A DNA stretch of 64,000 bases from Sinorhizobium numidicum (GTDB lineage Bacteria; Pseudomonadota; Alphaproteobacteria; Rhizobiales; Rhizobiaceae): the NCBI RefSeq assembly GCF_029892045.1, contig NZ_CP120367.1:124001-188000 (forward strand). The letters run 5' to 3'. The translations under genes and the position numbers were made by a program. The first letter of the stretch is position 1. Every line of letters begins with the position of its first letter. The notes beneath the pieces were generated by a model. It saw only the letters and a program-made list of their open reading frames with translations. It did not search any database and was not told the DNA's origin. Below, in pieces: positions 5,002 through 38,079 of the stretch.

Positions 5002-6023
5002 GCATTTTCGAATCCAAGAAGCTCGGCGAAATGGCCGTCGGGACCAAGATCGTGGTCTACGGCGTGCTTAGCATCTGGAGCTTCATTGTCCTGTTCCCGC
5101 TCTATTGGGTGCTGATCACCTCGTTCAAGCTGCCCATCGCCGTATCCGGCGGACCTTTCTACCTGCCCTTCGTCGACTTCTTGCCGTCACTGCACGCCTG
5201 GAGCTACATCTTCTTCGATCTGGGCAACGATACGTTTCGACCCTATTTTAACTCAGTGGTCGTGGCCGTCTTCTCGACGTTTCTTGTGATGATCGCCGGG
5301 TCGCTGGCCGCCTACGCGCTGTCGCGGTTCACGTTCCGGCCGCGGCTGCTGACCATCCTGATCTTCATCTTCGTCGTCGCCCTTGTCATCGTGCTGGTCG
5401 CGGCACTGGGAGTGAACTGGCTGATCGCAGTAACCGTCGGGGTGGCGCTGGCCGTCATCGGGGCAGGGGTGTTCCGCAGGATCCCTTCGCCGACGCTGGG
5501 CAATCCCGACATCCTGTTCTGGATGATTTCGCAGCGCATCCTTCCGCCGGTCGTCGCCGCGATCCCGATCTATGTGATGTTCCAGCAGGTCCGCCTGCTC
5601 GATACCCATATGGCGCTGATCGTCACCTATACGACGGTGAACCTGCCGATCGTGGTCTGGCTGATGTACGATTTCTTCGTCTCGATCCCCAAGGATCTCG
5701 AGGAATCGGCCGAGCTCGACGGTGCCTCGAGGATCCGCATCTTCTTCGAGATCATCCTGCCGCTATCCAAGCCGGGCCTCATCGCCACGAGCCTTCTGGT
5801 GCTTATCTTCTCTTGGAATGAGTACTTGCTGGCTCTGTTCCTCTCGACTGCCAACGCCCAGACCATGCCCCTGCTGGTCGCAGCACAGAACGCGACGCGC
5901 GGACCGCAATGGTGGTACATGAGTGTGCTCATCATTATCATGATCGTGCCGGTCATTCTGCTCACCCTCGTCCTGCAACGCTTCATCGCCAAGGGACTGC
6001 TCCTTGGCGCTGTCAAGGGATGA
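4998..6023 (+). CDS. Sugar ABC transporter permease (MalG/UgpE type) with extra membrane segments
   Basis: A 341-residue second permease of the same CUT1 system. The ATG at 4998 overlaps the previous stop and follows GAGGAGGG, so it is preferred over codons further upstream. The EAA loop reads DLEESAELDGASRIRIFFEI near residues 234-253. As in its partner, an insertion carrying two additional hydrophobic helices (about residues 120-155, including FIFVVALVIVLVAALGV) interrupts the usual order before the segment that leads to the EAA loop. Having matching insertions in both permeases suggests a distinct subfamily. It forms the channel together with the gene at 3889. Confidence 0.85.
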   Translation: MSIFESKKLGEMAVGTKIVVYGVLSIWSFIVLFPLYWVLITSFKLPIAVSGGPFYLPFVDFLPSLHAWSYIFFDLGNDTFRPYFNSVVVAVFSTFLVMIAGSLAAYALSRFTFRPRLLTILIFIFVVALVIVLVAALGVNWLIAVTVGVALAVIGAGVFRRIPSPTLGNPDILFWMISQRILPPVVAAIPIYVMFQQVRLLDTHMALIVTYTTVNLPIVVWLMYDFFVSIPKDLEESAELDGASRIRIFFEIILPLSKPGLIATSLLVLIFSWNEYLLALFLSTANAQTMPLLVAAQNATRGPQWWYMSVLIIIMIVPVILLTLVLQRFIAKGLLLGAVKG

Positions 6024-6027
6024 ACAC

Positions 6028-7077
6028 TTGACCGTCAGGCTCGAGAAAGTAGCGAAGTTCTTCGGTTCGGTGCGGGTCCTGCACGAACTCGATCTCGATG
6101 TGAAGGAAGGCGAGTTCCTCGTGTTGCTGGGTGCCTCGGGCTCGGGGAAAACCACTGCGCTGCGCATGATCGCCGGGCTCGAGACCGTGAGTTCCGGCAT
6201 GATCACCATCGCGGGGCGGGATGTCACCAATGTGCTGCCCAAGAACCGCGACGTGGCGATGGTGTTTCAGTCCTATGCGCTTTATCCGCACAAGACGGTC
6301 GGCGAAAATATCGGCTATCCGCTAAAGGTCCGAAGGCTTCCAAAATCCGAGATGGAGGCACGCATCAAGGATGTGGCCGACCAGGTTCAGTTGACGCCCT
6401 ACCTCGAACGCTATCCCCGCCAGCTTTCGGGCGGGCAGAGACAGCGCGTGGCGCTGGCGCGGGCTATGGTCAGACGGCCCAAGGTGTTCCTGATGGATGA
6501 GCCCCTGTCAAACCTCGACGCCAAATTGCGAGGTCACATGCGGGCAGAACTCAAACACATGCAGCATGACCTCGGGATCACTACCATCTATGTGACCCAT
6601 GACCAGATCGAGGCGATGACATTGGCTGACCGCGTTGCCCTGCTTGAAGGAGGCAAGCTGCAGCAGCTGGATACGCCGGCGAATATCTACAACGATCCTG
6701 CCAATCTCTTCGTCGCGCAGTTCATCGGTTCGCCGCCGATGAACTGCGTGCGCGGTACGCTTGACGGCAATCTATTCATAGCGGGCGGGACGAAAATCAG
6801 GGTTCCGGTGATGGGCAAGGTTGCAGAGGCCGTGCTTGGCGTGCGTCCCGAGGACTGCGCCGTGACGGCGCCCGAGGACGCCGACATGAACGGGAATGTC
6901 TACGCGATCGAACTCATCGGTGATCACACCTTAGTGACGGTCAAGACCGAGTCGGACATGCTCACGGTGAAGGCGGCGAAGGATTTCTCGGCGAAGGTCG
7001 GCAACGCCGTGGGAGTCAGATTGTCGAAGGACCACCTCTACCTCTTTGAAGCGGAAGACGGTGTGCGGCTGCGATAG
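6028..7077 (+). CDS. Sugar ABC transporter ATP-binding protein (MalK/UgpC type)
   Basis: Cytoplasmic ATPase that drives the preceding permeases. It has Walker [10 protein letters not shown] at residues 35-43, the signature [14 protein letters not shown], Walker [17 protein letters not shown], and the switch histidine in [12 protein letters not shown]-terminal TOBE-like domain ([11 protein letters not shown] onward) is typical of CUT1 ATPases. No ATG lies in frame near the start; TTG at 6028 has AAGGGA seven bases upstream and gives the usual MTVRLEKV N-terminus of 349 residues. A TTG at 6004 would add eight residues. The gene overlaps or nearly abuts the permease and closes the operon. Confidence 0.88.
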
Positions 7078-8044
7078 GGCCGTCTGCCTCCCGGCGTACC
7101 CGATGAGCGACCTCTCCGGGCCGCAAAGCGGGGACATGGCCGTGGCGATCACATGTTCTCGTTTCGTGCCCCGGAAATCGCATAATGTATCGAATGGAAC
7201 GCCAAATGGCTGTCAGCGACCTCGATCCTTCGACGCTACGCGGTGAACGGCTGCTCAGTGCGCCGCGTCAAGCGGGCAATCACCGGCTGTGGCGTGTTGG
7301 CCGGAGCGGAGAGCGCATTCCATGCGCAAGCGGGTTGTCTCCGGTGTCCTCCATCTTAACTGAACGCAACAGATAGCCAAACGAGGCCAGAGATGATGAT
7401 CATCGCGATTGCTATTCATTCAACTCCTTTTTCTGTCATCTGCGGGGCTCCAGGAAACTCAGCTTTGCAATGCGCACCTGACCCGAGCTGAGCTACGCTG
7501 CCGTCTTCTTACGTCGATAGGACCTTAGTCCGATGCTTATTGAAACGTCTTGGAACGAGATCCAGACGGCCTTTGGGCAAGGTCAAAAGCCATTTCGGTA
7601 ACGGCCTGCGCCGGACGGGTTTGTCGGGCGACGAAACTCCGCCGCTCGGAAGCCTGTGAAATTGAGGGTTCGGAGACGAACGACGCTTACGGTAGGAACC
7701 TGTTCGATGCACCGATCTTAGCCCTCGGTCAACAAGGGAATAGGTTCCTCCCGCCTCGGCGCCGGCAGATCGCTTCTGTTTGTGACTCGCGTCGTCCTCC
7801 TAGGAGATGACCTCTTCCGCCACTAGGTACCGCAAAGCGGTCGGCAAGTGTTCGACGCACTCCCCTCGTCATTCTGCGACCTCCAAAGCGGGATTGGTGG
7901 GCGGCCGGAGCTGCGGGGCGGTTCCATCCATTTCGCCGTCAATTTAGATTCACGCAAAACTGATTGCAGAACAGCACCAGTTATACTAGGCTGCAACCAG
8001 TTGCAGACTGCAAGCACATTTTCAGCAAACCAAGGGAGGCTTCC
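7078..8044. other. Intergenic region without an intact gene
   Basis: Almost 1 kb between the transporter operon and the hydrolase. It contains the repeated motif at 7178-7200, directly followed by a short open frame beginning ATGGCTGTCAGCGACCTC (7206) that I do not recognise and that looks like the start of a truncated gene. Nothing else in either strand resembles a known protein or RNA. Confidence 0.4.
7178..7200 (+). repeat. Copy A of a three-copy regulatory-looking motif
   Basis: TCGCATAATGTATCGA followed by ATGGAAC. Near-identical copies lie at 10789-10811 and 39668-39690 (consensus TCGCATARTGYATCGA...GGAAC). A TGTTCTCGTT block starts 24 bases upstream here and in copy B. Each copy stands just in front of a broken or missing gene, so it looks like a shared promoter/operator left behind by gene loss. 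The regulator is unknown. Confidence 0.55.
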
Positions 8045-16093: not shown

Positions 16094-17566
16094 TCATCTT
16101 GAGACCAGCACCGGCAAGGTCGTCAACGATGCCGATGTCCTCGATAGATGCGGCTGGGCGAACCATTCCGGGGATGCGCCGGGGCGTGTCAGGCAACCGG
16201 CAGCCAGGCCTGCGGTAATGCTGAACAAAAGGCCGAGGTCGGCGCCGCTTGCCGACACCGTTGCGGAGGCGATCTGGGCCATCGATGCGAAGATCGCGGC
16301 GAGTCCAATCGTTCTGTCTTCAATCGTTCTGCCTGGCCGCTCAGGCAGTTTTTTCGAGCGAGCCGCGTTTAAGAGGCTATGCAGGAAGACGAGGAAAAGG
16401 ACCGTGCCGGCCACTCCGATATTGGACAGCAATGCGGCGGGAAAACTTGATGCTCGCACGGTTCCGAGTCCGCCGCCGAACGTCGCCGTCTCGACAAAAG
16501 CCGTCAGAGCCAAGGTATTCCAAGCCGTGCGTTCCTCTCCGGACTGCGACTCGAGCTTGTCGACGAGCGTCAAACTTGCGAGATCGTTCACCGCGTTCCA
16601 CGCGTCCGGGATCAGCATGAGGCCGATGACCGCGGCGGGGACGACAAAGAGCGTGACGCTCAGAAAGGCTGCGTGGCGCGTCGTTGTCCGGCCGGCGACA
16701 AGCTGATTCAGGCTGAACGCGATCACGACCAAGAGAACAAGCGCACCGGCGATATACGCGGTCGTTGATGTGCACAGGAGGACTGTCATGCCGATCGACA
16801 GGGCGGCAAAACCCGCCAACCGGCTTGGAAAACGCTCCAGCCAAAGCATGAGCGTGAATGTGAAGTACGCCAATGCCGCCGAGCCGTATGCGCTTGCTTC
16901 GGGGTACGAGCCGACGATACGTTTGAAACCGCTCATGGTTTCTGCCGTATGCATCGTGTAGTTGGCGTTCCGGATAAAATCGAGCCATTCGGGATGACCG
17001 GCCATGAACGTCCCCACATCGAGGCTCGCCAGAGCAAAACAGGTTACGGCAGTCATCACCAATGTTTGGGCCAGGAAGCGCGCGTACCCCAGTTGCGCGA
17101 GGCCACAGACGACGGCAAAGCAGGCGAGATCACTGAGCAGGTAGACGGCCTGGGTCAGGTTCGACGAGCCCGGCGAAAGCGGGGAGGCTATCGTCGACAT
17201 CACGCCTGACGCACCCCGCGCCGAGGAATAGACCAGCGTCGCGCCCTGGAAGATTCGCGGCAGGAAAAAAGCCGAAAGCACAGAAAAGAGTATGTACGCG
17301 GCGAACCAGAAGCCGGGGCCCGGATAAGCGGCGCTCGCCAGTGCCGCCTGGATCAGGCGGGGGCGAAGCATGCAACATGCGATCAGCGAAAATAGAAGAA
17401 GATGGCTAGGCTGGATGCTGCTGCCGCCAAGCGAGGGGAGCTGAATGGCGGCGGCGGCGCCTAACAACACCGACAAGCAAAGGACGGCGATCGCGAAGCG
17501 TGCTCCGAGAACGATGCCGAACGCACCAAGTAGAAAGACGATGTAGCCGATCACTTCTATCGTCAT
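16094..17566 (-). CDS. Wzy-like polysaccharide polymerase (O-antigen ligase family)
   Basis: A 490-residue, strongly hydrophobic protein with about ten to twelve predicted helices and a large periplasmic loop (FMAGHPEWLDFIRNANYTMH through KRIVGSYPEASAYGSA), as expected of Wzy/ExoQ-type polymerases that link undecaprenyl-bound repeat units in the periplasm. The late GGGLGTVRASSFPAALLSNI segment matches the ligase/polymerase family. Its start overlaps the stop of the export gene (ATGA), so translation is coupled. Sequence alone does not separate polymerase from ligase, but operon context with ExoY, ExoP and ExoF favours polymerase. Confidence 0.8.
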   Translation of the reverse strand: MTIEVIGYIVFLLGAFGIVLGARFAIAVLCLSVLLGAAAAIQLPSLGGSSIQPSHLLLFSLIACCMLRPRLIQAALASAAYPGPGFWFAAYILFSVLSAFFLPRIFQGATLVYSSARGASGVMSTIASPLSPGSSNLTQAVYLLSDLACFAVVCGLAQLGYARFLAQTLVMTAVTCFALASLDVGTFMAGHPEWLDFIRNANYTMHTAETMSGFKRIVGSYPEASAYGSAALAYFTFTLMLWLERFPSRLAGFAALSIGMTVLLCTSTTAYIAGALVLLVVIAFSLNQLVAGRTTTRHAAFLSVTLFVVPAAVIGLMLIPDAWNAVNDLASLTLVDKLESQSGEERTAWNTLALTAFVETATFGGGLGTVRASSFPAALLSNIGVAGTVLFLVFLHSLLNAARSKKLPERPGRTIEDRTIGLAAIFASMAQIASATVSASGADLGLLFSITAGLAAGCLTRPGASPEWFAQPHLSRTSASLTTLPVLVSR

Positions 17567-19954: not shown

Positions 19955-21679
19955 TCATCGCAGCATTCTGGCTGGGGCGTTGTTGATGACGGCGCCGAGG
20001 ATCTCGCCGTCGACGTTGCGCATGCTGTCGATCGCCCTGACTGCGTCATCGACGGATGTGCGCCCGTAGGCTGTCACCACCAGGACTCCGTCCAGTTCCG
20101 GCGCTATCGCATTCGTATCCGGGGAAGCAGAGAATGCGGGGAGGTCGACGAGAATGGTGTCGTATTTCTTCTTCAGGGCATCAAAACTCCATTGTGTCCG
20201 GCCCGAGCCGATACGAATGGCTGGAGTGACCCTGCCGACTTTACCAAGCGGCAGAAATTGCAGAGTCGGCGCAAGCGAGATCACCGCCTTCTCCATCAGG
20301 TCGACATCGTCGAGCACATCGACGAGACCGATCGCGACTTGAGGCGCAATTGCCGCGCTCAGGGAGGAATTTGGGGCGGCCGCATCAATAAGAAGGGTTT
20401 GCGAGCCCGACAGCGCGGTGAGGATCGCAAGTTCGCGGGCCATGGTGGACGCCCCGCTGCCAGGATTGACCGCTACTATCCCGATGACGGTCCGTTGTCT
20501 GCGTCGCAAACCTGCGACAATCGCGGCCAATTCGCCCATGCCATCCAGAGTCCTAAGAATGGCGGCACCATTGCTTGCGTCGGCGGCAGGGGAAAACAAG
20601 GCAGAGCGACGTCCCAACAATGTGACCGATTTCAAGCCTGCTGCTTGGATGAGCTGCCGGGCGCGGATGATCCGGCGATCACCGACATGCCGTATCATGG
20701 CCAACATCAAGCCGGCGCCTGCGCCGACGGCGATGGAAAAACCGAGGATCAGGCTGCTACGCGGACGCTCCTTGGAAAGTGGCGGGGTTGCCGCGGAAAC
20801 GATTGTGGCGTCGGAGACCGGATAGGAGACGCGCTGTTTCGCTTCCGTAAATCGCGTCAGGGTACTTTCGAAGAGTGCGCGGCGGGCGTCCGCGGCGCCC
20901 CGCAATTCGGCAAGCTTGAACTGGTCGCGTGGATTGGCCCTGAAGGTGGTCAAGGCGTTGGCTGCCTCACTCAATTCGCGCTGTTGCTCAGTGACGAATT
21001 TCTCCAGCCATTTGCTATATTGTTGCGCGGCCTGCGCATTCATCTGGATGTTTTTGCGGATATATTCCTGCGCGACCGTGTTGGCGATTTTCGCTGCCTT
21101 GTCGGGGCTGGATGCCGCCGCCGATATTTGCAGGATCGTGGATCGCCCGCTCCGACGCAAAGTCACCATGCCGCGCAGCCGCATGATGATCCGATCGATC
21201 CGTTTCTGCTCTTCCGTCCGCGCTCCCGGCTGGGCTTCGCCCGCTTGGCTGCCTGGTTCTGCGCGGCCCGGAAGAAGACCCATCAACCATTCTTTTGCGA
21301 TGTCCTTGGACGACGGCGGCTGATCGGCGAAATCCGGGTCGCTGGCGAGATCGAGCGCGGATGCTGTTGCGGCGAGTACGTCGCTGGAACCGGCAATCTG
21401 CAGCTGCACTTCTATGAACGCATCTTCGGCCGAGGCTCTTTGCGTCTCGGACGTGTTGGCCGGCAGCATGACGAGGAGCTGGGTGTCCGCCACGAACGTC
21501 GGATTGGCTGTCGCGAGGTGAATAATCGCTATGGCGAGGAAGGCTGTGATCGTAGAGACGATCCAGGGCCAGCGCACGCGAAGAAAAAAGAACACGTCCT
21601 GCAAGGCCAACGGCGAATTGGCGCTATTGTTCGAGACGGGGAGGGCTATCGGGGAAACACCGCCATAGACGTAATTCAT
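19955..21679 (-). CDS. ExoP/Wzc-like chain-length protein with degenerate tyrosine-kinase domain
   Basis: A 574-residue inner-membrane co-polymerase. The N-terminal Wzz domain has a helix at about 36-55 (IVSTITAFLAIAIIHLA), a long periplasmic region with coiled coil, the proline motif PPLSKERPRSS and a second helix. The C-terminal domain resembles BY-kinases, but Walker A reads NPGSGAST with Ala where the lysine should be, Walker A' reads LLIDAAAPN instead of DxD, and the C-terminus ends PARMLR without a tyrosine cluster; Walker B TILVDLP is kept. It probably regulates chain length without kinase activity. It lies directly downstream of the exoY-like gene. Confidence 0.85.
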   Translation of the reverse strand: MNYVYGGVSPIALPVSNNSANSPLALQDVFFFLRVRWPWIVSTITAFLAIAIIHLATANPTFVADTQLLVMLPANTSETQRASAEDAFIEVQLQIAGSSDVLAATASALDLASDPDFADQPPSSKDIAKEWLMGLLPGRAEPGSQAGEAQPGARTEEQKRIDRIIMRLRGMVTLRRSGRSTILQISAAASSPDKAAKIANTVAQEYIRKNIQMNAQAAQQYSKWLEKFVTEQQRELSEAANALTTFRANPRDQFKLAELRGAADARRALFESTLTRFTEAKQRVSYPVSDATIVSAATPPLSKERPRSSLILGFSIAVGAGAGLMLAMIRHVGDRRIIRARQLIQAAGLKSVTLLGRRSALFSPAADASNGAAILRTLDGMGELAAIVAGLRRRQRTVIGIVAVNPGSGASTMARELAILTALSGSQTLLIDAAAPNSSLSAAIAPQVAIGLVDVLDDVDLMEKAVISLAPTLQFLPLGKVGRVTPAIRIGSGRTQWSFDALKKKYDTILVDLPAFSASPDTNAIAPELDGVLVVTAYGRTSVDDAVRAIDSMRNVDGEILGAVINNAPARMLR

Positions 21680-21757: not shown

Positions 21758-22468
21758 CTAGTATGACCCGCGCTGCGAAAACAGGCTCGGAACGGTCTTG
21801 AGCATGATGGCGAAGTCCCTCCAGAGCGACCAGGTCCGGACATAGTGGACGTCGAGCGATACGCGGCTCTGATAGCTGACATCGTTGCGCCCGCTCGTCT
21901 GCCAATGGCCGGTCAGACCCGGACGGGCGACAAAATAGGTGAGAACGTGCTCTCCGTAGCGTGGCAGTTCCTCGGCCGTGACCGGTCGTGGTCCCACCAG
22001 GCTCATCTCTCCGCGAACGACGTTGATGAGCTGCGGGAGCTCATCGAGGCTCGATCGCCTCAGGATTTCGCCGACAACCGTAATCCTCGGATCATCCTTC
22101 AGCTTCCGGGTCGCTTCCCATTCCATCCGGGCGGCAGGATCGGTCTTCAGCAGTTCTGCGAGTTGAGCGCTTGCATTCGTCTTCATCGTGCGGAATTTGA
22201 GGCATCCGAAAGGGGTGCCGCCAAATCCCACCCGCGTATGCGAGTAAAGGACCGGACCGCCATCACCAAGTTTCACGATGATCGCCACGATGAGAAGAAG
22301 TGGAGCAAGGGCCACCAAGGCGAATGTTCCGAGCAAAAGGTCGACTGCGCGTTTGGAGGTTCGTCCGAGGGGATCAGATCTGGATCCGCTGAAATTGGGA
22401 GTATGCGCGGAAACGTCAATGCCGCGCCATGGCCGTTCTGCCTCTCGGCTCCGTGCTCTGCTCACCAT
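21758..22468 (-). CDS. exoY: Undecaprenyl-phosphate sugar phosphotransferase, ExoY-like
   Basis: A 236-residue priming enzyme that transfers hexose-1-phosphate (in ExoY galactose) from UDP-sugar to undecaprenyl phosphate and starts the repeat unit. A single helix ([20 protein letters not shown]) is followed by the bacterial sugar-transferase domain: [41 protein letters not shown] and [15 protein letters not shown]. The ATG is preceded by GAGAGGGATGTGAACG. It is the first gene of the minus-strand arm and is driven by the conserved leader 22469-22570, whose copy stands at 33178. The symbol reflects family resemblance, not proven identity. Confidence 0.85.
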
Positions 22469-22570
22469 CGTTCACATCCCTCTCGCGGTCAAAATCGAGA
22501 GGAGTTTGCTGCACTGCGATGAGGCTGTATGTGACCAAGGTCATACTAGTTAACAAAATATTCTGATAGG
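22469..22570 (-). promoter_or_regulatory. Leader/promoter of the exoY-like operon, duplicated at 33178
   Basis: The 102 bases before the ATG match 33178-33279 without any gap: 21 identical bases (CCTATCAGAATATTTTGTTA onward), 5 different, then 40 identical bases containing the palindrome, then 36 partly matching bases up to the ATG. The AT-rich start and the palindrome mark it as the control region. The remaining 295 bases up to the regulator at 22866 are AT-rich and unlike the other copy. Confidence 0.8.
22531..22544. promoter_or_regulatory. Crp/Fnr-type operator, copy 1
   Basis: GTGACCAAGGTCAT, a 14-bp site of the form GTGAC-N4-GTCAY, the half-site and spacing used by Crp/Fnr-family proteins. 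It lies 63 bases before the exoY-like start and between that gene and the divergent Crp/Fnr regulator gene. Related sites are at 33204-33217 and 27700-27713. Confidence 0.65.
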
Positions 22571-22865
22571 GAACAAGTCAGGTATTCGGAGATTAGGGCG
22601 TATTTGTTCCTGATAAAGCTTGATAAGTCGTTGCTTTGAATGAAGTAATTCCAGTGTAATCCTGAACTAGTCTAATAATTCACCCGTGGTCTGCCTAGAA
22701 TCTTTGCTTTTTGCCTGAAAAAACATCATTGGTATTAGTTTGATACTCAAAAAATAACCCCAATGGGTGATTTGACTAGATCCAGCAAAGTAATAACATG
22801 TATTAACTCATGTTGCGCTGCAGCATTCGCCATTACTCTGTGATCTCACTCGAGGAGTGAAGCGT

Positions 22866-23594
22866 ATGGACGGCCCTATATTCAGCCGCTGTTACAGTAT
22901 CGAGACTGGTCGTGCGCTTGTTTCGCCGTTTGGTGGTGGGCGCCGCGCGGCCGTGGACGATGGATTCGCCTTCTTTCGCTCGAGCGTGAGGACCTTTCGC
23001 CGCGGCGAGATTATCGCCATGCCAGGCGTCCGCATCGACAAGTTTGCTCGCGTGCAGCACGGCCTGGTCATTGCGAGCACTGTTTTGCCTGATGGCAGGG
23101 AGTTCATCGCCGAGGTCATACCCACGGCCGGGGTTATTGGTGAGCTCGAAGTCTTGCGGAGGCAGACGTTGAGTCTGGAATATCGCGCCGCTACCGACTG
23201 CGAACTTCACTTCTTCGAAGGACGGCTGCTGCGCGAGAAATACGTCAGCGATCCTGATTTTCAGGAATCGGTCCTGCTCAAGGCATTGGCGCGTGTTTCG
23301 GAGCTTGAGCTTCGCATTATTTCGAATGCCGGGTCGAGCCTGCAATCAAGACTGGCAAGCACGCTGTTGCGGCTCTCGAAAGTTTACGCCAAAGAGGCGC
23401 CAAACTCCCGGGACGAATTGATCATTTCACAGCATGACCTTGCGGCGACGCTTCCGGCTTCTCGCGAGAAGGTCAATAGGTGCCTCCGGCGATTGCGGGA
23501 GAGCAAGATCATCGACGGAGCGCAAGGCCGGATCCGTATCCTTAACCGCAAGGCTTTGCAAGCTTGCGCCGACAGCACGTTCTCGGAGAAATGA
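22866..23594 (+). CDS. Crp/Fnr-family transcription regulator
   Basis: A 242-residue regulator with an N-terminal cyclic-nucleotide-type beta-barrel (FRRGEIIAMPG, VIPTAGVIGELEVL), a dimer helix and a C-terminal winged helix-turn-helix. The recognition helix LPASREKVNRCLRRLRESKI keeps the R-E-x3-R contacts that read GTGA cores in CRP. The phosphate-binding cassette lacks the CRP-like Arg-Ser pair and no FNR-type cysteine cluster is seen, so the signal is unknown. ATG 22866 has AGGAG eight bases upstream; GTG 22857 is less likely. It is divergent from the exoY-like gene and probably controls this locus through the GTGAC-N4-GTCAC sites. Confidence 0.85.
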   Translation: MDGPIFSRCYSIETGRALVSPFGGGRRAAVDDGFAFFRSSVRTFRRGEIIAMPGVRIDKFARVQHGLVIASTVLPDGREFIAEVIPTAGVIGELEVLRRQTLSLEYRAATDCELHFFEGRLLREKYVSDPDFQESVLLKALARVSELELRIISNAGSSLQSRLASTLLRLSKVYAKEAPNSRDELIISQHDLAATLPASREKVNRCLRRLRESKIIDGAQGRIRILNRKALQACADSTFSEK

Positions 23595-27609: not shown

Positions 27610-27699
27610 GGCGCTATAGTTTTCGCTCATTTCAAGAATCGATTCCAAGTTGACGAAGAATATTTGAAATCAAATGAAGAGTCGATCCGAGTGATGGGA

Positions 27700-27713
27700 G
27701 TGACCTAGGTCAC
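27700..27713. promoter_or_regulatory. Crp/Fnr-type operator, perfect palindrome
   Basis: GTGACCTAGGTCAC reads identically on both strands and matches the form of the sites at 22531 and 33204 (GTGAC-N4-GTCAC). It is followed by AT-rich sequence (CACATATTTTCTCTGG, then TATATTGTAATTTATTCG). It lies about 120 bases before a small open frame and 420 bases before the phosphomannomutase gene, so it may control precursor supply. Confidence 0.65.
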
Positions 27714-27821
27714 ATATTTTCTCTGGCAGGATGCGTATATTGTAATTTATTCGATGCGAATTGTTCGATCGTCCGCCGAATACTGTTGTCTGAGGCGTGA
27801 AATATTACCACAGGGTTTCAC

Positions 27822-31405: not shown

Positions 31406-32986
31406 CTACAGCGTCCTTGGCGCGTCTGACAAGACGCGCGGCGCTGCAGTGGGTTCCGTCACTTGGCTGAGCTCCGCCATCAAGGCACGGCCGCTGGGCC
31501 AGGCGATGACGCCATAGACGAGGCCGCCCACCACCACCCCGACCAGCAATTCCATCACAGGAAGCAGGCGGAAGCCGCCCGTCGTGTGGAGCAACACCCC
31601 GACCGTGGCGACCATCAGGCACGCGCCCAAGCCGGCCGGCAGGATCCTGCGCAGCAGCGGCCGCCAGCGGAACCCCGTGCCACGCTGCAGGGCATGGAGC
31701 GATGCAGCCGTGGTCAGCATCGCCGCCGCCACCTGCGCGATGGCGATGTCGAGCAGTTCCGGCCTGATCCAACCTGCGATTCCAAGGCAGGCAAGGCTCG
31801 CCGCAGTAAACAGCATGTTCAGGCGCGGCAACAGGGCGACGCGGCCGATGACGCTGAGCACAGGCTCGTTCAGCATCTGGACGACAGCAATGCCCCGCGC
31901 GGCGGCCAAAAGGACCAGAACCGGGGCGGCCGCGATCCACTGCTCGCCGAGCAGCACATGCACGAGCCTCTGCGAGACCACAGCGAGGCCCAGGAAGACC
32001 GGAAGTGCGGCGAAAGCCGTGGCAGCCAACATCAGCCCGGTGAGGCGGCCCAACTCCTCGAAGCCCCCTGCGTCGCCCTGCTGGCGCGAGAAATAGCTCC
32101 AGGCCAACATTCGCACCGGCTCGGAGATCAGCTCGGTCACCGCGCCCACCATGCGGCTGGCGATTCGATAGAGGCCAACCTCGGTCACGCCGATGAAGAA
32201 CACGATCAGGAACTCCGCTCCATAGCTCTGCGCGAATTGTATCAGCCGGGACATCAGCAGACGCGCTGAATAGGCCGAGGCCTCTCGGGCCACGCTCAGC
32301 CGGAATTCAAAGCGAGGCAGCCAGCGCGCAAAGCTCGTAGACATGATCAGAGCGACGAGCACGACGCAGCAGCGCCCCGCCGCCAGTGCGACGATGTCCC
32401 ACCCCAGCAGCAATCCTCCACCAGTCACGAGCAGGCCGCAGAGCTCGGATACCGCCTGATAGCAGGCAAGGTCACGCAACCGCCGTGCCCGCACCAGCAC
32501 ACCGCTCTGGCAGATGATGAACGTGCCGGGAACGATAGTGGCCATCAGCAAGAGCAGGGTGAGGAATGTGGCGCCTTCGGGTTCCAGCCAGACAAGCCAG
32601 ACGGCGAGCCCACAGAGGCCGATGAGGGTGAAGACGACGCCGCTCGCGAGTGCGCAATAGAGCATGGTCGCGGGCAACTCCCTGCCGCGCGGCGCAGCAA
32701 TAAGGTATTCGCTCCACCCCGCCTCAGCGACCTTGGATTGCAGCAGCACTATTGCGGAAATCATGGCGAAAACGCCGACCTGCGCAGGCGACAGGATGCG
32801 CGCGGCGATCAGCAGCGCGCCGATGCCGCAGAGCTGGCTGACCAAGCGGGCGCCGGATACCCAGAGCGCATCGCGTGAACTGGATGAGCGGCCTGCCGCC
32901 TGGCCCACCTTCGGCTCGGTTACGGTGTCTGACGACCTCATCGGCGGCGCATCCAAGGCACGCCGAGACCGGGGATAGCACGACAT
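31406..32986 (-). CDS. Polysaccharide flippase, Wzx/ExoT-like
   Basis: A 526-residue inner-membrane protein with about twelve to fourteen helices of the MATE/MVF flippase fold (GARLVSQLCGIGALLIAARI near residue 45; SYFSRQQGDAGGFEELGRLT in the middle). Such proteins move the lipid-linked repeat unit across the inner membrane. The first methionine at 32986 or the one at residue 16 (32941) could be the start. Its last ten codons run through the palindromic repeat at 31421, so the present stop was supplied by that element. It is the only flippase of the locus and faces the manC gene. Confidence 0.82.
   Translation of the reverse strand: MSCYPRSRRALDAPPMRSSDTVTEPKVGQAAGRSSSSRDALWVSGARLVSQLCGIGALLIAARILSPAQVGVFAMISAIVLLQSKVAEAGWSEYLIAAPRGRELPATMLYCALASGVVFTLIGLCGLAVWLVWLEPEGATFLTLLLLMATIVPGTFIICQSGVLVRARRLRDLACYQAVSELCGLLVTGGGLLLGWDIVALAAGRCCVVLVALIMSTSFARWLPRFEFRLSVAREASAYSARLLMSRLIQFAQSYGAEFLIVFFIGVTEVGLYRIASRMVGAVTELISEPVRMLAWSYFSRQQGDAGGFEELGRLTGLMLAATAFAALPVFLGLAVVSQRLVHVLLGEQWIAAAPVLVLLAAARGIAVVQMLNEPVLSVIGRVALLPRLNMLFTAASLACLGIAGWIRPELLDIAIAQVAAAMLTTAASLHALQRGTGFRWRPLLRRILPAGLGACLMVATVGVLLHTTGGFRLLPVMELLVGVVVGGLVYGVIAWPSGRALMAELSQVTEPTAAPRVLSDAPRTL
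31421..31438. repeat. Intergenic palindrome, family copy 3
   Basis: CGCGTCT / AGACGCG around a GACA loop, followed by CGGCGCTGCAG. Same family as 11128 and 27590. It overlaps the last codons of the flippase gene. Confidence 0.6.
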
Positions 32987-33177: not shown

Positions 33178-33279
33178 CCTATCAGAATATTTTGTTAATG
33201 ATTATGACCTTGGTCACATACAGCCTCATCGCAGTGCAGCAAAGTCGCACTGGTATTAGCCGCGATGGGGAAGTGAAAG
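33178..33279 (+). promoter_or_regulatory. Second copy of the exoY-type leader/promoter
   Basis: A gap-free 102-base copy of the leader of the exoY-like gene (22469-22570, other strand), including the AT-rich start, the Crp/Fnr-type palindrome and 40 identical bases ending GCAGTGCAGCAAA. The sequence left of 33178 is unrelated, which fixes the duplication edge. It now drives the phosphodiesterase/nucleotidyltransferase operon. Confidence 0.8.
33204..33217. promoter_or_regulatory. Crp/Fnr-type operator, copy 2
   Basis: ATGACCTTGGTCAC, the reverse complement of the site at 22531-22544, at the same distance (62-63 bases) from the start codon that follows. Confidence 0.65.
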
Positions 33280-33381
33280 ATGGTGACCAGAGCACGACGC
33301 GAAAACAGCACGCGGGCAGGCGCTGAGCACGGGGCTGGCGCAGGCATTACGGCCCGTCTGGCCGGGGTGCATGACCGATGA
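33280..33381 (+). pseudogene. ExoY-like N-terminal relic acting as leader frame (33 aa)
   Basis: ATGGTGACCAGAGCACG encodes MVTRAR and continues for 33 residues; the exoY-like gene starts MVSRAR. After the first eight or so residues the match is lost. The stop (33379-33381) overlaps the ATG of the next gene (33378) as ATGA, so its translation could be coupled to that operon. It is probably the leftover 5' end of a duplicated exoY-like gene now used as a leader peptide. Confidence 0.55.
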
Positions 33382-34049
33382 TGATCCTTGCGCATCGTGG
33401 CTGGTGGCATGCGCCCCATGAGCGAAACACCCTGGCAGCCTTCGATAAGGCCTTTGCCGCCGGCCACGGCGTCGAGCTGGACGTTCGCGATCTAAGCGGC
33501 GCCCTCGTCACTTCGCACGATCCCCCCGCAACCGGAGCCCTGCCTTTCGAGCGCGTGCTCGAGTGCTATGCGGCGCATGGCGCGCCGGGCCGATTGGCCA
33601 TCAACATCAAGGCAGACGGTCTCTGCTCCGCGCTCGTGCCGCTGCTCGCACGCTACGGCGTCATGAACCGCGCCTTCGTCTTTGACGCGTCGGTCCCGGA
33701 TCTCAGGCCTTATCTCGAAACCGCCCTGCCGGTCTTCACCCGCTTCAGCGAGGTTGAGCGCCATCCGCCCTTCTATGAACGCTGCCAGGGCGTGTGGGTG
33801 GACTCCTTCACCGAGGCGCCCGCTTCGATCGAGCGCGCCATCGATGATCTTGCACGCGGCAAGTTTGTTGCGATGGTGTCGCCGGAATTGCACAAGCGTC
33901 CGCAGCAAGCGGCCTGGACCGAGTGGTCGGCCGCGCTTCGACGTGCCGCGATGGGCGGTCTGCCGCTTGAGCGACTGATGCTGTGCACCGACCTGCCGGA
34001 TTTAGCGCAGCAGCGCTTCGCCTGGATGCATCAGGAGGAAGTTCAATGA
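33378..34049 (+). CDS. Glycerophosphodiester phosphodiesterase-like protein
   Basis: A 223-residue TIM-barrel protein of the GDPD family without signal peptide. It has ILAHRGWWHAP near the N-terminus (catalytic His-Arg), the ERNTLAAFDKAFAAG segment, the metal-binding E-x-D in GVELDVRD, and LVTSHDPP (second catalytic His). GDPDs split glycerophosphodiesters into glycerol-3-phosphate and an alcohol. It is shorter than most and translationally coupled to both the leader frame and the HAD gene. In this operon it may release or process a phosphorylated building block; that is inference. Confidence 0.75.
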   Translation: MMILAHRGWWHAPHERNTLAAFDKAFAAGHGVELDVRDLSGALVTSHDPPATGALPFERVLECYAAHGAPGRLAINIKADGLCSALVPLLARYGVMNRAFVFDASVPDLRPYLETALPVFTRFSEVERHPPFYERCQGVWVDSFTEAPASIERAIDDLARGKFVAMVSPELHKRPQQAAWTEWSAALRRAAMGGLPLERLMLCTDLPDLAQQRFAWMHQEEVQ

Positions 34050-34675
34050 TCCGAGGTGTTTTCTTCGACATGGACGGCGTGCTGATCGATGCCAAGGAAT
34101 GGCATTACGAGGCACTGAACCGGGCGCTTGAGCTTTTCGGCATGCCGATCGACCATCAGGCGCACCTTGCCACCTTCGACGGCCTGCCGACCCGCCGCAA
34201 GCTGGAGATACTGTCGCGCTCCAATGGTCTGCCGCATGGCCTCAGCGAGCTGATCCATTCGCTGAAGCAGGACTACACGATGGAGCTGATCTACACGCGT
34301 TGCCGACCGGTCTTCGCGCATCAATACGCCCTCAGCCGTCTCAAGCATGAGGGCTACGAGATCGCAGTCTGCTCGAACTCGATCCGCGACACCGTCGAAT
34401 CCATGATGCGGCGCGCCGGGCTGATCGACTACATCGACCTGATCGTCTCGAACGAGGACGTCACCCGCTCCAAGCCGGATCCGGAGATGTACCTTACCAC
34501 GATGGAGCGCTTCGGCCTGCAGCCGAGGGAATGCATGATCCTGGAAGATAATGAATACGGCCTGAAGGCGGCGCGCGACAGCGGCGCGCATGTCCTGCAG
34601 GTCGGCTCGCCGGCCGATGTCGTGTACGCCAGGATCGTTTCCGAGATCAAGCTTGTATCGGAGGTGGCGGCATGA
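34046..34675 (+). CDS. HAD-family phosphatase
   Basis: A 209-residue haloacid-dehalogenase phosphatase with a helical cap. Motif I is VFFDMDGVLIDAKEWHYEAL (nucleophile Asp and acid Asp in DMDGV), motif II the serine in VCSNSIRDTV, motif III the lysine in TRSKPDPEMYL, motif IV LEDNEYGLKAARDSGA. It overlaps the previous gene by ATGA and the next by four bases. It resembles beta-phosphoglucomutase/phosphatase members, but the substrate is unknown; a small phosphorylated metabolite of the decoration pathway is likely. Confidence 0.85.
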   Translation: MIRGVFFDMDGVLIDAKEWHYEALNRALELFGMPIDHQAHLATFDGLPTRRKLEILSRSNGLPHGLSELIHSLKQDYTMELIYTRCRPVFAHQYALSRLKHEGYEIAVCSNSIRDTVESMMRRAGLIDYIDLIVSNEDVTRSKPDPEMYLTTMERFGLQPRECMILEDNEYGLKAARDSGAHVLQVGSPADVVYARIVSEIKLVSEVAA

Positions 34676-36165
34676 TCGTGCTATTCCCGGCCAACGGCCC
34701 GAGCTCTTACTTCAGCCCGGAAGACTACGCGTATCCGCGCCCGCTCATCGAAGTGGCGGGAAAGCCGATGATCCAATGGGCCATCGAGAACATGAAGTCG
34801 CTCGGCGCCGAGACACGCTTCCTGTTCGTCGTCGATCAGCAAGAGGCCGTCCGATATTCCTACGAGCGGATCTTCGACCTCAGTACGGGCGGTCGCTCGC
34901 AGATGTTGATGTTGAAGGGGCCGACCGCCGGAGCGCTCTGTACCTGTCTCATGGCGATCGACGTCATCGACCCGACCGAGCCGCTGGTGATCGCCAACAG
35001 CGATCAGATCATCGACATCCGTCTCTCTTCCGTGATTGCAGAGTTCGAGGCGGCCGGGGCGGATGCCGGCATCATCACGTTTGAGACGATCCATCCGCGC
35101 TGGTCCTATGCGACCCTTGGGGAAGACGGTCTGGTGAACCGCACCTCCGAGAAGGAGGTGATCAGCAACCAGGCGATCGCCGGATGCTACTATTTCCGCG
35201 AGGCGCAGCTGTTCTTCAAGGCGGCCGCCGCTGCGCTGCGGCACGGGGTCACCGTGGAAGGGCGCTACTATGTCAGCTCCTCGTTGAACGAGGTAATCCT
35301 CGATGGTGGCCGCGTCGTCTCGGCCACCATCAGCGCCGACCAGTACCACAGTTTTTACAACCCGAAGATGATCGAGAATTTCGAGGTGAATGGCGTGCAG
35401 CGTCTGTCCTCCACGCATGCCAGCCGGTCGGTGCAGCTGGTGGTGCCAGCGGCCGGACGGGGCAGCCGCTTCGCCAAAGTCGGCTTCCAGCATCCGAAGC
35501 CCTTCATCGACGTGCTTGGCCGGCCGATGATTCAACATGTGCTGGACAACGCCTTGCCGCCGGGTGGCCGCCCGACTGTACTGCTGCTCCGCGACCACCT
35601 GCACAGTCAGCCCGATGCGGTGGCTGAGCTTCGCTCGCGGGGCGTAGGCATCGTTCCGGTCAATCGGCTCACCGAGGGCACTGCCTGCACCGTCCTGCTA
35701 GCTCGCCAGCAAATCGACGAAGAGGGACCGCTGTTGATCGCCAACTCCGACCAGGTGGTGGACATGCGCATCGGGGACTTCATCGATGACTGCATCTCGC
35801 GAGGCCTGGACGGATCAATCCTCGTTTTCCGCGACCGCAAACGCGATCCGAAATGGTCGTTCGCAGAAACCGATGCGGAGGGCCTGGTGCTGCGGGTCGC
35901 CGAAAAGCAGCCGATCTCCGATCTCGCGACGGTAGGCATCTATTTCTTTCGCCGCGCGGGCGACTACATGAAGGCGGCACTCGACATGATGGTGCACAAC
36001 GACCGCACCAATGGCGAGTTCTACGTCTGCCCGACCTACAACTACGCCATCCGGAATGGGGCGCGTATCGGCGTATATGAGATCGACAAGAGCAGCATGC
36101 ATGGCCTGGGCACGCCAGAGGATCTAGCCGAGTACCTGCAGGGCCGCGAGCCAGCCTATGCCTGA
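34672..36165 (+). CDS. Tandem nucleotidyltransferase-fold protein
   Basis: A 497-residue fusion of two sugar-nucleotidyltransferase-like domains (about 1-240 and 250-497). Domain 2 has the canonical signature VPAAGRGSRFAKVGFQHPKP; domain 1 has FPANGPSSYFSPEDYAYPRP in the same place, lacking the GxGxR loop. Both keep LVIANSDQ/LLIANSDQ and EKEVISNQ/EKQPISDL, that is, the metal/sugar region. Domain 1 may therefore be inactive or regulatory, or bind another substrate. The protein would activate a phosphorylated sugar or small alcohol to an NDP form. It is coupled to the HAD gene and overlaps the next one. I know of no characterised protein with this layout. Confidence 0.75.
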   Translation: MIVLFPANGPSSYFSPEDYAYPRPLIEVAGKPMIQWAIENMKSLGAETRFLFVVDQQEAVRYSYERIFDLSTGGRSQMLMLKGPTAGALCTCLMAIDVIDPTEPLVIANSDQIIDIRLSSVIAEFEAAGADAGIITFETIHPRWSYATLGEDGLVNRTSEKEVISNQAIAGCYYFREAQLFFKAAAAALRHGVTVEGRYYVSSSLNEVILDGGRVVSATISADQYHSFYNPKMIENFEVNGVQRLSSTHASRSVQLVVPAAGRGSRFAKVGFQHPKPFIDVLGRPMIQHVLDNALPPGGRPTVLLLRDHLHSQPDAVAELRSRGVGIVPVNRLTEGTACTVLLARQQIDEEGPLLIANSDQVVDMRIGDFIDDCISRGLDGSILVFRDRKRDPKWSFAETDAEGLVLRVAEKQPISDLATVGIYFFRRAGDYMKAALDMMVHNDRTNGEFYVCPTYNYAIRNGARIGVYEIDKSSMHGLGTPEDLAEYLQGREPAYA

Positions 36166-36901
36166 TGCTGGCGCGAGACATGGCCCTTCGACGCCGCTGA
36201 ACGTTATCATTCCCCTGGCGGGACGGGATTTTGAGCGGCCCGATGGCTCGGTGAAGGCTGAGATGGTGGTTGGTGGCACGACGCTGCTGCGCGCCACATT
36301 GGAGGCACGTCCATGGTGGAGCGCGACCGCAGCGCCCGTCTTCGTTCTGCGGGACACCGCTGCGTCGCAGCGCTTTGCGCGAGAGACGCTCTGTGCGGAG
36401 TACCCTGCGGCGAGGATCGTGTGGTTGTCGCATGCCAGCGGCGGCGCCGCCTGGAGCGCCGTGGCGGGCGCAACGCTGATCGCCCGGCAGGAGGCACCGA
36501 TCATCGTCGATCTTTGCGACATCATATTCGAGAGCGATGCGGATGTGGCCGCAGCTTTCACAGCCGATCCCGCTCTGGGCGGCCTTGCGCTGACCTTCGC
36601 CTCCCGCCATCCGCAATACAGCTACTTGCGGCTTGCGCCGGATGGGCGGATGCAGGAGGCGAAGGAGAAGGTGGTCATCTCCGGGAACGCGTCGGCCGGT
36701 GTTTACGCTTTTCGCGACGTCGCTGTCTTCCATGCGGCTTTTGCGCACAGCCTGCACCATCGCGCGACGCTGTCGCACCAGGGCGCGCTCTTTGTCTGCC
36801 CCATGCTGAACGGCGTTGTGGCTCAGGGGCTCGACGTACGCTGCTTGCCAGCACACAGGGTGTTGGATGTCAAATTAGAGGGGGCCAGCCTGGCCGACTA
36901 G
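36158..36901 (+). CDS. Single-domain nucleotidyltransferase-like protein, divergent signature
   Basis: A 247-residue protein that resembles one domain of the preceding protein: NVIIPLAGRDFERPDGSVKA takes the place of the signature loop, IIVDLCDIIFES the place of the NSDQ motif, and EKVVISGNASAGVYAFRD the EK element. The GxGxR loop and the SDQ are both absent, so catalysis by the usual mechanism is doubtful. It overlaps the tandem gene by eight bases. It could act on a different substrate or serve as a binding partner of the tandem enzyme. Confidence 0.65.
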   Translation: MPDAGARHGPSTPLNVIIPLAGRDFERPDGSVKAEMVVGGTTLLRATLEARPWWSATAAPVFVLRDTAASQRFARETLCAEYPAARIVWLSHASGGAAWSAVAGATLIARQEAPIIVDLCDIIFESDADVAAAFTADPALGGLALTFASRHPQYSYLRLAPDGRMQEAKEKVVISGNASAGVYAFRDVAVFHAAFAHSLHHRATLSHQGALFVCPMLNGVVAQGLDVRCLPAHRVLDVKLEGASLAD

Positions 36902-37095
36902 ACGCGGCATTACCAAGGACTATGGGAAGCAGTGTGGTAGATGATCCAGTGTTGGACGGAGGGTGCCACGCTGTTCCCCAATTTAAGCGCGGCCCGCTAG
37001 TCCGATCCAACGCCCGGGGGCACGGTACGCGAGAGGCGTTGGCACGCTCGCCAGCGATCAGCGACACGCCGTAGAAAGACGGAGGGGAGTTAGCC

Positions 37096-38079
37096 ATGAC
37101 AGCCCAGCCATCCACAAAAGTACCCTCGCTCGCCATCATCATTCCCTGCTTCAACAATGCCGAGACCCTTGCCGAGGCGCTCGCAAGCGCACTCTCGCAG
37201 GACTACCTGGCCTTCGAAGTGCATGTCTGCGACAACGGCTCCTCGGACGGCAGCCGGGAGATCATCGAGGCCCATGCGTCGCCCCGATTGCGGCCGGCGC
37301 TGCACCAGGACACCGTCTCCCGCACCGACAATTGGAACCGCGCCTACGCCGCCGGGTCGCATGCGGATTACCTCGTCACACTGCATGCAGATGATCGTCT
37401 GGCGTCGGGCGCGCTGCAGGCTATTGGGCACGCGGCAAGGCGCCGCCCGGCCTTGGTCCACGGCCGCTTCCGCCAGATCACCTATGACGGCGCGCCCATA
37501 GCCGGTCGCCGCTTCCCGTGGAGCTACAGCAACAATGGCGAAGCGTTCCGGGAGCTGCTGCTGCTCAACAACATGATTGCGATGCCGGGCGCGACCATCC
37601 GAACTGATGTCTTCTTCGAGGCGGGTTGCTGGGACCCTGCCTGGCAGTACCTGCAGGACATGGAGTTGTGGTGGCGTTGCGGCGAGCTTGGCGAGGTGGC
37701 TTATGTCGCAGGGCTTCTCGGCGACCACCGGGCCTACAAGCAGCCACAGGCGCTGCACCGGCATGCCGAGGAGCACCTCCGCTGGGCGGCGGACAAGCTT
37801 TACGCTGCCCCTACCGCCCGCCTGCGTCAAGCGGCGGCGGACGGGCTCGGCGCCTATCTCGACCGGCTGGAGGCAGAAGTGGTGGCGCTGCCGGAGGTGA
37901 GCGCCAACTTGGCCGAGCCGATACGGAACGCCCGCACGGCGCTGGCGAACGGACCCAGCCCTCGTGCGCATGCCCTTCGTCGGCAACGCCTGCTGCGCGC
38001 GCTCGCCGCTTCCCGCTCGGCCGTCGCAAACGTCGTCGAGCGCCTGCCGAACCGCCAAGCTCCCCCGCCTTCATCCTGA
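37096..38079 (+). CDS. Glycosyltransferase family 2
   Basis: A 327-residue GT-A enzyme. SLAIIIPCFNNAETLAEALA starts the fold, HVCDNGSSDGSREIIEAH follows, LVTLHADDRLASGAL carries the DD/DxD metal site near residue 100, and WQYLQDMELWWRCGELG the acceptor-side ED motif near residue 190. AAGACGGAGGGGAGTTAGCC precedes the ATG. The 194-base gap before it holds no gene. As the last gene of this operon it probably transfers the activated group made by the nucleotidyltransferases to the polymer. Confidence 0.85.
   Translation: MTAQPSTKVPSLAIIIPCFNNAETLAEALASALSQDYLAFEVHVCDNGSSDGSREIIEAHASPRLRPALHQDTVSRTDNWNRAYAAGSHADYLVTLHADDRLASGALQAIGHAARRRPALVHGRFRQITYDGAPIAGRRFPWSYSNNGEAFRELLLLNNMIAMPGATIRTDVFFEAGCWDPAWQYLQDMELWWRCGELGEVAYVAGLLGDHRAYKQPQALHRHAEEHLRWAADKLYAAPTARLRQAAADGLGAYLDRLEAEVVALPEVSANLAEPIRNARTALANGPSPRAHALRRQRLLRALAASRSAVANVVERLPNRQAPPPSS

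Follow-up and report, generated by a model that had tools for sequence, protein, structure and literature searches.

The described systems closest to a five-gene block in an exopolysaccharide locus of Sinorhizobium numidicum are the sugar-1-phosphate nucleotidyltransferases (NTs; RmlA, GlmU, GMPPB and HddC, PF00483), the HAD class IA enzymes of the beta-phosphoglucomutase type (TIGR02009), the glycerophosphodiester phosphodiesterases (GDPDs; PF03009), the GDP-D-glycero-D-manno-heptose pathway, for which the gene set is GmhA, HddA, GmhB and HddC, and the succinoglycan-like Wzx/Wzy loci with ExoY-type initiation. The block lies on the plus strand at 33378-38079 of the stretch of DNA analysed, hereafter the window (64,000 nt; GCF_029892045.1, NZ_CP120367.1, positions 124,001-188,000 of the forward strand), to which all coordinates refer. 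It encodes a GDPD-like protein, a HAD-family protein, a tandem NT with two domains (NTa and NTb), a third protein of the NT fold (NT3) and a family 2 glycosyltransferase (GT2). With moderate confidence, the block is taken to be the rhizobial form of a widespread, undescribed module that supplies a nucleoside-diphosphate (NDP) sugar. Judged from sequence comparison, the gene set probably makes an activated sugar for cell-surface or secreted polymers.

Each of the described systems resembles the block in part. The sugar-1-phosphate NTs share the fold and, with NTb, the GxGSR and PKP motifs, the first metal Asp and the EK pair, but the module has two or three paralogous domains, one of them canonical, and the second metal Asp is replaced. 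The best solved match of both NTb and the NT3 model is 4EVW, a nucleoside-diphosphate-sugar pyrophosphorylase from Vibrio cholerae, which is by contrast single-domain and about 20% identical to NT3; no functional paper on it was found, and the paper associated with it concerns, by its title, crystallisation prediction. The HAD of the block has the DxD, K and ED motifs of the TIGR02009 enzymes, yet it scores under the family cut-off and has a cap motif of its own. The TIM barrel, HRG, E.D, second His and K of the GDPDs recur in the GDPD-like protein, whereas the Glu of xEIK is Asn and the gene is linked to sugar-nucleotide genes. The GDP-heptose pathway likewise combines a HAD phosphatase with a GT-A nucleotidyltransferase; unlike that pathway, the block includes a GDPD-like gene, and neither an SIS isomerase nor a GHMP kinase was found among the block and scanned locus genes. 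Like the succinoglycan-like loci, the locus has ExoY, export, Wzx-type, glycosyltransferase and GH16 genes, but it carries the module, and three of its transcription starts are preceded by a Crp-like element.

No description of the gene set was found in the open-access literature, a coverage that leaves subscription journals mostly outside. A survey of jumbo phages (PMC7824862) reports sugar clusters of cyanophages that differ from this set, with cupins, HADs and HIGH-type NTs, and two further papers (PMC4000134, PMC13125312) deal with other gene sets. Since none of the NCBIfam equivalog cut-offs compared was reached by any of the five block proteins either, the original prediction that no described pathway uses this set is borne out to that extent. 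The biochemistry of the set could already have been described with other names for its genes, given that a Campylobacter jejuni strain carries it and that much carbohydrate biochemistry is published in subscription journals. This is judged improbable in view of the open-access literature, of the equivalog comparisons, in which the first of 30 NTb members also scored only 59.2 bits against a cut-off of 320.25, and of the closest solved structure, 4evw, being a structural-genomics entry.

The gene set in bacteria and phages

All five genes that had been proposed for the block were confirmed as open reading frames (ORFs). Successive overlaps of 4, 4 and 8 bp link the first four, and a gap of 194 bp precedes the GT2 gene; therefore, the tight coupling claimed for the whole block applies to four genes, and less so to GT2. 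The HAD start was chosen by homology, the longest ORF opening at 33983. Pfam matches were obtained for the HAD (HAD_2, 5.2e-35), GT2 (Glycos_transf_2, 6.1e-20) and the tandem protein (NTP_transferase, 1.5e-22, in two stretches).

The unit Wzx-GDPD-HAD-tandem NT-NT3-GT2 is kept in all 13 rhizobial loci compared, which are recorded as three Ensifer, five Rhizobium and five 'Rhizobiales bacterium'. Beyond these, the best 80 of 236 related bacterial stretches, found with the tandem NT profile alone, and the best 80 of 583 viral ones were compared. In the bacterial set, the HAD is present in 77/80 loci, the GDPD-like gene in 75/80 and both in 74/80. The GDPD gene lies directly 5' of the HAD gene in 66 loci, and in every one of the 77 HAD-bearing loci the HAD adjoins an NT, directly upstream of it, or is fused to it. 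Among the loci that miss one of the two genes, three (L071, L090 and L043) lie on short contigs and in L040 the HAD is at a contig edge, whereas neither L045 nor L085 is short. The loci with both genes, several of them from metagenome bins, belong as recorded to about seven phyla (Pseudomonadota, Campylobacterota, Bacteroidota, Cyanobacteriota, Elusimicrobiota, Marinimicrobia and Bdellovibrionota). Because the gene set recurs across so many loci, the block is not a chance assembly, and the claim that its genes form one functional set is supported; the idea that the set is special to this locus gives way to that of a widespread module.

Closer relatives have the fused tandem NT, which occurs in 34 loci of one cluster and is then followed by NT3; they are mostly Alphaproteobacteria and also include Microcystis and Prochlorococcus. 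In distant loci each of the two domains, NTa and NTb, has a gene to itself, and between the two there is often a small cupin gene and sometimes a SnoaL-like gene; the cupin was found in 45 loci (36 bacterial and 9 viral). Gene order varies, as in the NTb-GDPD-HAD-NTa arrangement of L188 and L189. A distant tandem NT on an Escherichia coli IncR plasmid (NZ_CP145712, L201) sits with GtrA, GT2, GDPD-family, kinase and HAD genes. The Campylobacter jejuni locus (strain GP013, L072) carries the module with a GDPD-like ORF that is without its N-terminal part. A second set follows that module at 4827-7476 of the locus and comprises a small HAD-like gene, a 507-residue protein that looks by eye like an NT-kinase, and a 4EVW-like NT; no Pfam match was found for its proteins at 1e-5.

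Among 385 alphaproteobacterial genomes, the NT was found at 1e-30 in seven, with its domains separate or single except in the genome of S. numidicum itself, and the GDPD-like family was found at 1e-8 in ten. Five strong GDPD-like hits all adjoin NT hits. The five weaker ones represent a distant subfamily, and an NT-like frame could be seen by eye near those in L193, L195 and L196. In the alphaproteobacterial loci L192-L196, the GDPD-like gene adjoins a GT2 gene, with the NT-like frame in three of them.

The phage versions of the module are more compact. In 80/80 viral loci, a single ORF of 440-478 residues matches both the HAD (about residues 3-203) and the NT (about 214-454). The HAD profile had absorbed two fusions and cross-matched NT proteins, and the fusion was retested with single sequences. 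A GDPD-like protein of about 149 residues is encoded in 68/80 viral loci, and 25 of the 68 match the bacterial profile at 1e-5. GDPD, HAD and NT are separate genes in another two viral loci (L184 and L185), which are nearly identical. The HAD-NT fusion is the strongest sign of HAD and NT acting in sequence.

Proteins of the WavE family (PF07507) were sought among genes up to 7 kb from the NT, using a profile iterated for four rounds and not fully converged. WavE-like proteins lie near the module in 39/80 bacterial and 13/80 viral loci, and also in Azospirillum lipoferum. To our knowledge, no function has been assigned to them. No WavE was found in the S. numidicum genome, though the positive control of that search was also silent; WavE was therefore not adopted for the window as a universal transferase, and GT2 is the candidate transferase in S. 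numidicum.

The predicted enzymes

The three NT domains were compared by means of a tandem-protein alignment of 30 rows (from 120 listed of 3469 proteins), an NT3 alignment of 25 rows and a wider NTb set of 30 rows. NT3 has no Pfam match. Its AlphaFold model (pLDDT 92.9) finds 4evw (4.8e-15), GlmU and RmlA as its best PDB matches, and by that model NT3 has a nucleotidyltransferase fold. The NT3 profile matches those of NTa and NTb with hhalign probabilities of 99.92 and 99.63; by these profile comparisons the three domains are paralogues, and for NTa the assignment to the fold comes from comparison with NTb and NT3 alone. The nearest matches of NTb are 4evw, the best solved one (4.3e-30), and sugar-1-phosphate NTs.

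In NTb, residues G262, G264, R266, K276, D360, E411 and K412 are invariant in 30/30 tandem proteins, and the Lys, the Asp and the EK pair are also invariant in the wider set. In NTa, F, H or Y replaces the signature Arg in 30/30, with N109, D111, E160 and K161 retained. The signature loop of NT3 reads mostly A-G-P-D-F (A-G-P in 22/25, D in 23/25), and D118, D121, E170 and K171 are invariant across the 25 proteins. By sequence, therefore, the block has one canonical NT, NTb, and two altered ones. The three nucleotidyltransferase domains of the original prediction stand as regards the fold, but the canonical catalytic signature is found in NTb only, and that all three are activating enzymes is doubtful.

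The GT-A domains could in principle be glycosyltransferases, with the HAD and the GDPD-like protein in another role, as might be supposed from the name 'glycosyltransferase family 2 protein' that NCBI often gives to the homologues and from the missing GxGxR of NTa and NT3. The complete GxGSR..PKP and EK motifs of NTb in all 30 proteins, its NTP_transferase match, the fold matches of NT3 to NTs and the fusion of HAD to NTb in every viral locus make this very unlikely.

The HAD has the DxD, Lys and ED catalytic motifs, each present in at least 0.99 of 77 rows, together with the conserved cap motif DGLPTxxKL. It scores 118.3 bits against TIGR02009 over residues 2-186, where the family cut-off is 153.35, and 91.9 bits against the 189.4 required for the beta-phosphoglucomutase equivalog TIGR01990. 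In sequence it is nearest to the beta-phosphoglucomutase group, and a phosphatase or a mutase would both fit.

The GDPD-like protein matches Pfam GDPD with an E-value of 0.0021 and 18.7 bits, under the gathering cut-off of 23.6, and its AlphaFold model is a TIM barrel (pLDDT 96.0) for which the best PDB matches are GDPDs. Across 50 aligned rows, drawn from the 75 loci with a GDPD-like gene, H6, E33, D35 and H47 are invariant, which accounts for both catalytic His residues and the E.D metal pair, and K78 is retained. The third metal ligand of GDPDs is the Glu in an xEIK motif. The corresponding position, N76, whose alignment to a Glu of 1o1z is weak (a segment of 0.9 bits), is Asn in 50/50 rows, and the phage form has His there. 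Because of the Asn or His at this position, the protein is not classed, on its sequence, as a GDPD phosphodiesterase, and the loss of the acidic ligand argues against plain glycerophosphodiester hydrolysis. The GDPD of the original prediction is thus retained as a TIM-barrel fold but not as a true GDPD, given the different metal-ligand position and the sub-cut-off Pfam score.

If the protein were an ordinary glycerophosphodiesterase, a scavenger of phosphate or glycerol encoded next to the other genes but unconnected with them, it would have the TIM barrel, the paired His and the E.D pair that are retained here. Such an enzyme is most improbable in light of the low Pfam score, with PF03009 matched at E 0.01 by 10/50 members, of the replaced Glu in bacterial and phage forms alike, and of the presence of the GDPD-like gene together with the HAD in 74/80 loci. 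Gene linkage ties the GDPD-like enzyme to the pathway proposed below. The best viral fold match of its model is a 716-residue protein of Bodo saltans virus (A0A2H4UUJ1), named glycosyltransferase/phospholipase; this giant virus may carry a GDPD-glycosyltransferase fusion.

A candidate NDP-sugar pathway

In the proposed pathway, the HAD would supply a sugar-1-phosphate, either by mutase activity or by dephosphorylating a bisphosphate, and NTb would convert the sugar-1-phosphate to an NDP-sugar. NTa and NT3 may be non-canonical partners, allosteric or with altered chemistry. GT2 would then add the residue to a lipid-linked repeat unit, to be exported by the neighbouring Wzx. The order from HAD to NTb to transferase is proposed because of the phage fusion and the gene order. 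The GDPD-like enzyme may have a dedicated step in this pathway, with a phosphosugar or an NDP-sugar as its substrate.

Several observations weigh against this reading. The bacterial and viral sets are top-scoring loci and are skewed to close relatives, and the 13 rhizobial loci, being close relatives, do not count as independent cases. The GT2 that belongs to the set in all 13 of them, as had been claimed, has no relatives in 53/67 non-rhizobial loci, so that part of the claim does not extend further; where GT2 relatives are absent, WavE-like proteins may be the usual transferase of the module. Two of the seven alphaproteobacterial genomes with an NT hit, G108 (78% complete) and G169, have no GDPD hit. 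In the wider NTb set, the GxGSR residues are conserved in at least 90% of rows and are not invariant. A palindrome like those of the control region described below also occurs, with two mismatches, at window 62655, outside the locus. Finally, the sugar NTs have their second metal Asp within a D-x-G motif, in place of which NTb has M-H-G-x-G, with G478 in 30/30. Because this Asp is absent, the chemistry of NTb could differ; 4evw, aligned with NTb, is likewise without it.

The missing metal Asp bears on what the activated compound might be, in that it leaves room for a non-sugar substrate. As first predicted, the GDPD and HAD would make a small phosphorylated alcohol or acid, to be activated in the manner of CDP-glycerol and attached as a non-sugar or phosphoester decoration, and a GDPD-like fold and a HAD beside an NT fit that scheme. 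It is nevertheless considered unlikely. The nearest NT matches are sugar-1-phosphate enzymes, the canonical Glu ligand is lost in the GDPD-like family, and no LicD- or CDP-glycerol-type phosphotransferase was found among the genes scanned, which were part of the window genes. The distant version of the module sits with GtrA and GT2 genes, a set associated with polyprenyl-phosphate sugars. An activated sugar is favoured because of this last association and because NT3 and NTb most resemble sugar-1-phosphate NTs.

A more specific form of the NDP-sugar proposal is put forward tentatively, as something short of an even chance. In this undescribed sugar-nucleotide pathway, the substrate of a PI-PLC/GDPD-fold enzyme with an altered metal site would be a phosphosugar or an NDP-sugar, and this enzyme would work alongside a HAD and an unusual NT, which are fused in phages. 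The pathway would be common to several phyla and to tailed phages and would yield an unrecognised surface sugar. A module so widespread, and compressed in phages, should be the source of a surface building block absent from current pathway lists. Once the product was identified, many loci for capsule, O-antigen and exopolysaccharide could be annotated together, and it would be clear whether the GDPD fold was recruited into sugar-nucleotide metabolism. In Sinorhizobium, the product would be an accessory sugar tied to the control element of exopolysaccharide initiation. The Pasteurella gene bcbE was considered as a named relative and set aside, no paper on it having been found.

The exopolysaccharide locus and its control region

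The genes of the window include ExoY, Poly_export, Bac_transf, GT2, GT8, GT4, GH16, PMM, ManC, epimerase and Wzx (Table 1). Flippase, polymerase, chain-length and export genes occur together, as in a Wzx/Wzy exopolysaccharide locus. In a comparison of 24 genomes, Wzx was found only in G000, G003, G006 and G009, which are exactly the module-bearing ones, and Wzy was found in the same four with a 36% relative in G007; a fifth module-bearing genome, G018, lies outside that comparison. In the ten rhizobial loci other than Ensifer, neither pmm nor manC was found within the stretch fetched.

Table 1. Features of the locus and of the block, in window coordinates
Feature	Position	Strand	Basis
Wzy polymerase	16094-17566		sequence only, no Pfam match
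Wzc-type protein	19955-21679		BcsQ match and position
exoY-like initiating sugar transferase	21758..22468	-	PF02397
41-bp element upstream of the exoY-like gene, matching that before the block	22505..22545	-	exact repeat
Regulator of the Crp/Fnr family, encoded divergently from exoY; may bind the palindrome	22857..23594	+	family match; binding putative
Crp-like palindrome AGTGACCTAGGTCACA, about 420 bp upstream of pmm-manC	27699..27714		like site before pmm in Ensifer L021-L023
Wzx-type flippase, divergent from the block	31406..32986	-	PF13440; with the block in 13/13 rhizobial loci
41-bp element identical to that upstream of exoY	33203..33243	+	exact repeat; palindrome TATGACC-TT-GGTCACA at 33203-33218
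33-codon leader ORF; its opening codons are copied from the start of exoY, and its end overlaps the GDPD start	33280..33381	+	putative translation
GDPD-like protein (PI-PLC/GDPD-superfamily TIM barrel), 223 aa	33378..34049	+	H6, E33, D35, H47, N76, K78 conserved
HAD class IA phosphatase or mutase, beta-phosphoglucomutase-like, 209 aa	34046..34675	+	Pfam, NCBIfam, motifs
Tandem NT, 497 aa: NTa ~1-250, no GxGxR; NTb ~251-497, canonical GxGSRF..PKP	34672..36165	+	Pfam, alignment
NT3, third nucleotidyltransferase-fold protein, 247 aa, without GxGxR signature	36158..36901	+	AlphaFold model, profile comparison
GT2 glycosyltransferase, 327 aa	37096..38079	+	Pfam; in unit of 13/13 rhizobial loci

The exoY-type control that had been proposed for the block is supported at the DNA level by the exact 41-bp repeat, which has two copies in the window, before exoY and before the block only; 100 shuffles gave no match. 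When the repeat was used as a 66-nt query, those two copies were the only matches in the genome. A palindrome of the form TGTGACC-NN-GGTCACA is found at window positions 22530 (exoY/crp), 27699 (pmm-manC) and 33203 (block). With up to two mismatches, it lies upstream of the block in 13/13 rhizobial loci and upstream of pmm in 3/3 Ensifer loci, and no other such palindrome was found in the 264,126 bases of the 13 loci. These sites look like a small regulon inside the locus, in which the Crp-family regulator beside exoY probably switches exoY, pmm-manC and the block together. The shared promoter copy, the Crp-like palindrome and the co-occurrence with flippase and polymerase all agree with the original proposal that the block serves the same polysaccharide.

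The copy of the repeat before the block extends into the exoY start and thereby creates the 33-codon leader ORF. By a simple motif look-up, its start was not found in L022 and L023; it is present in L021 as well as in the window, and the leader ORF suggests that the promoter arose by duplication.

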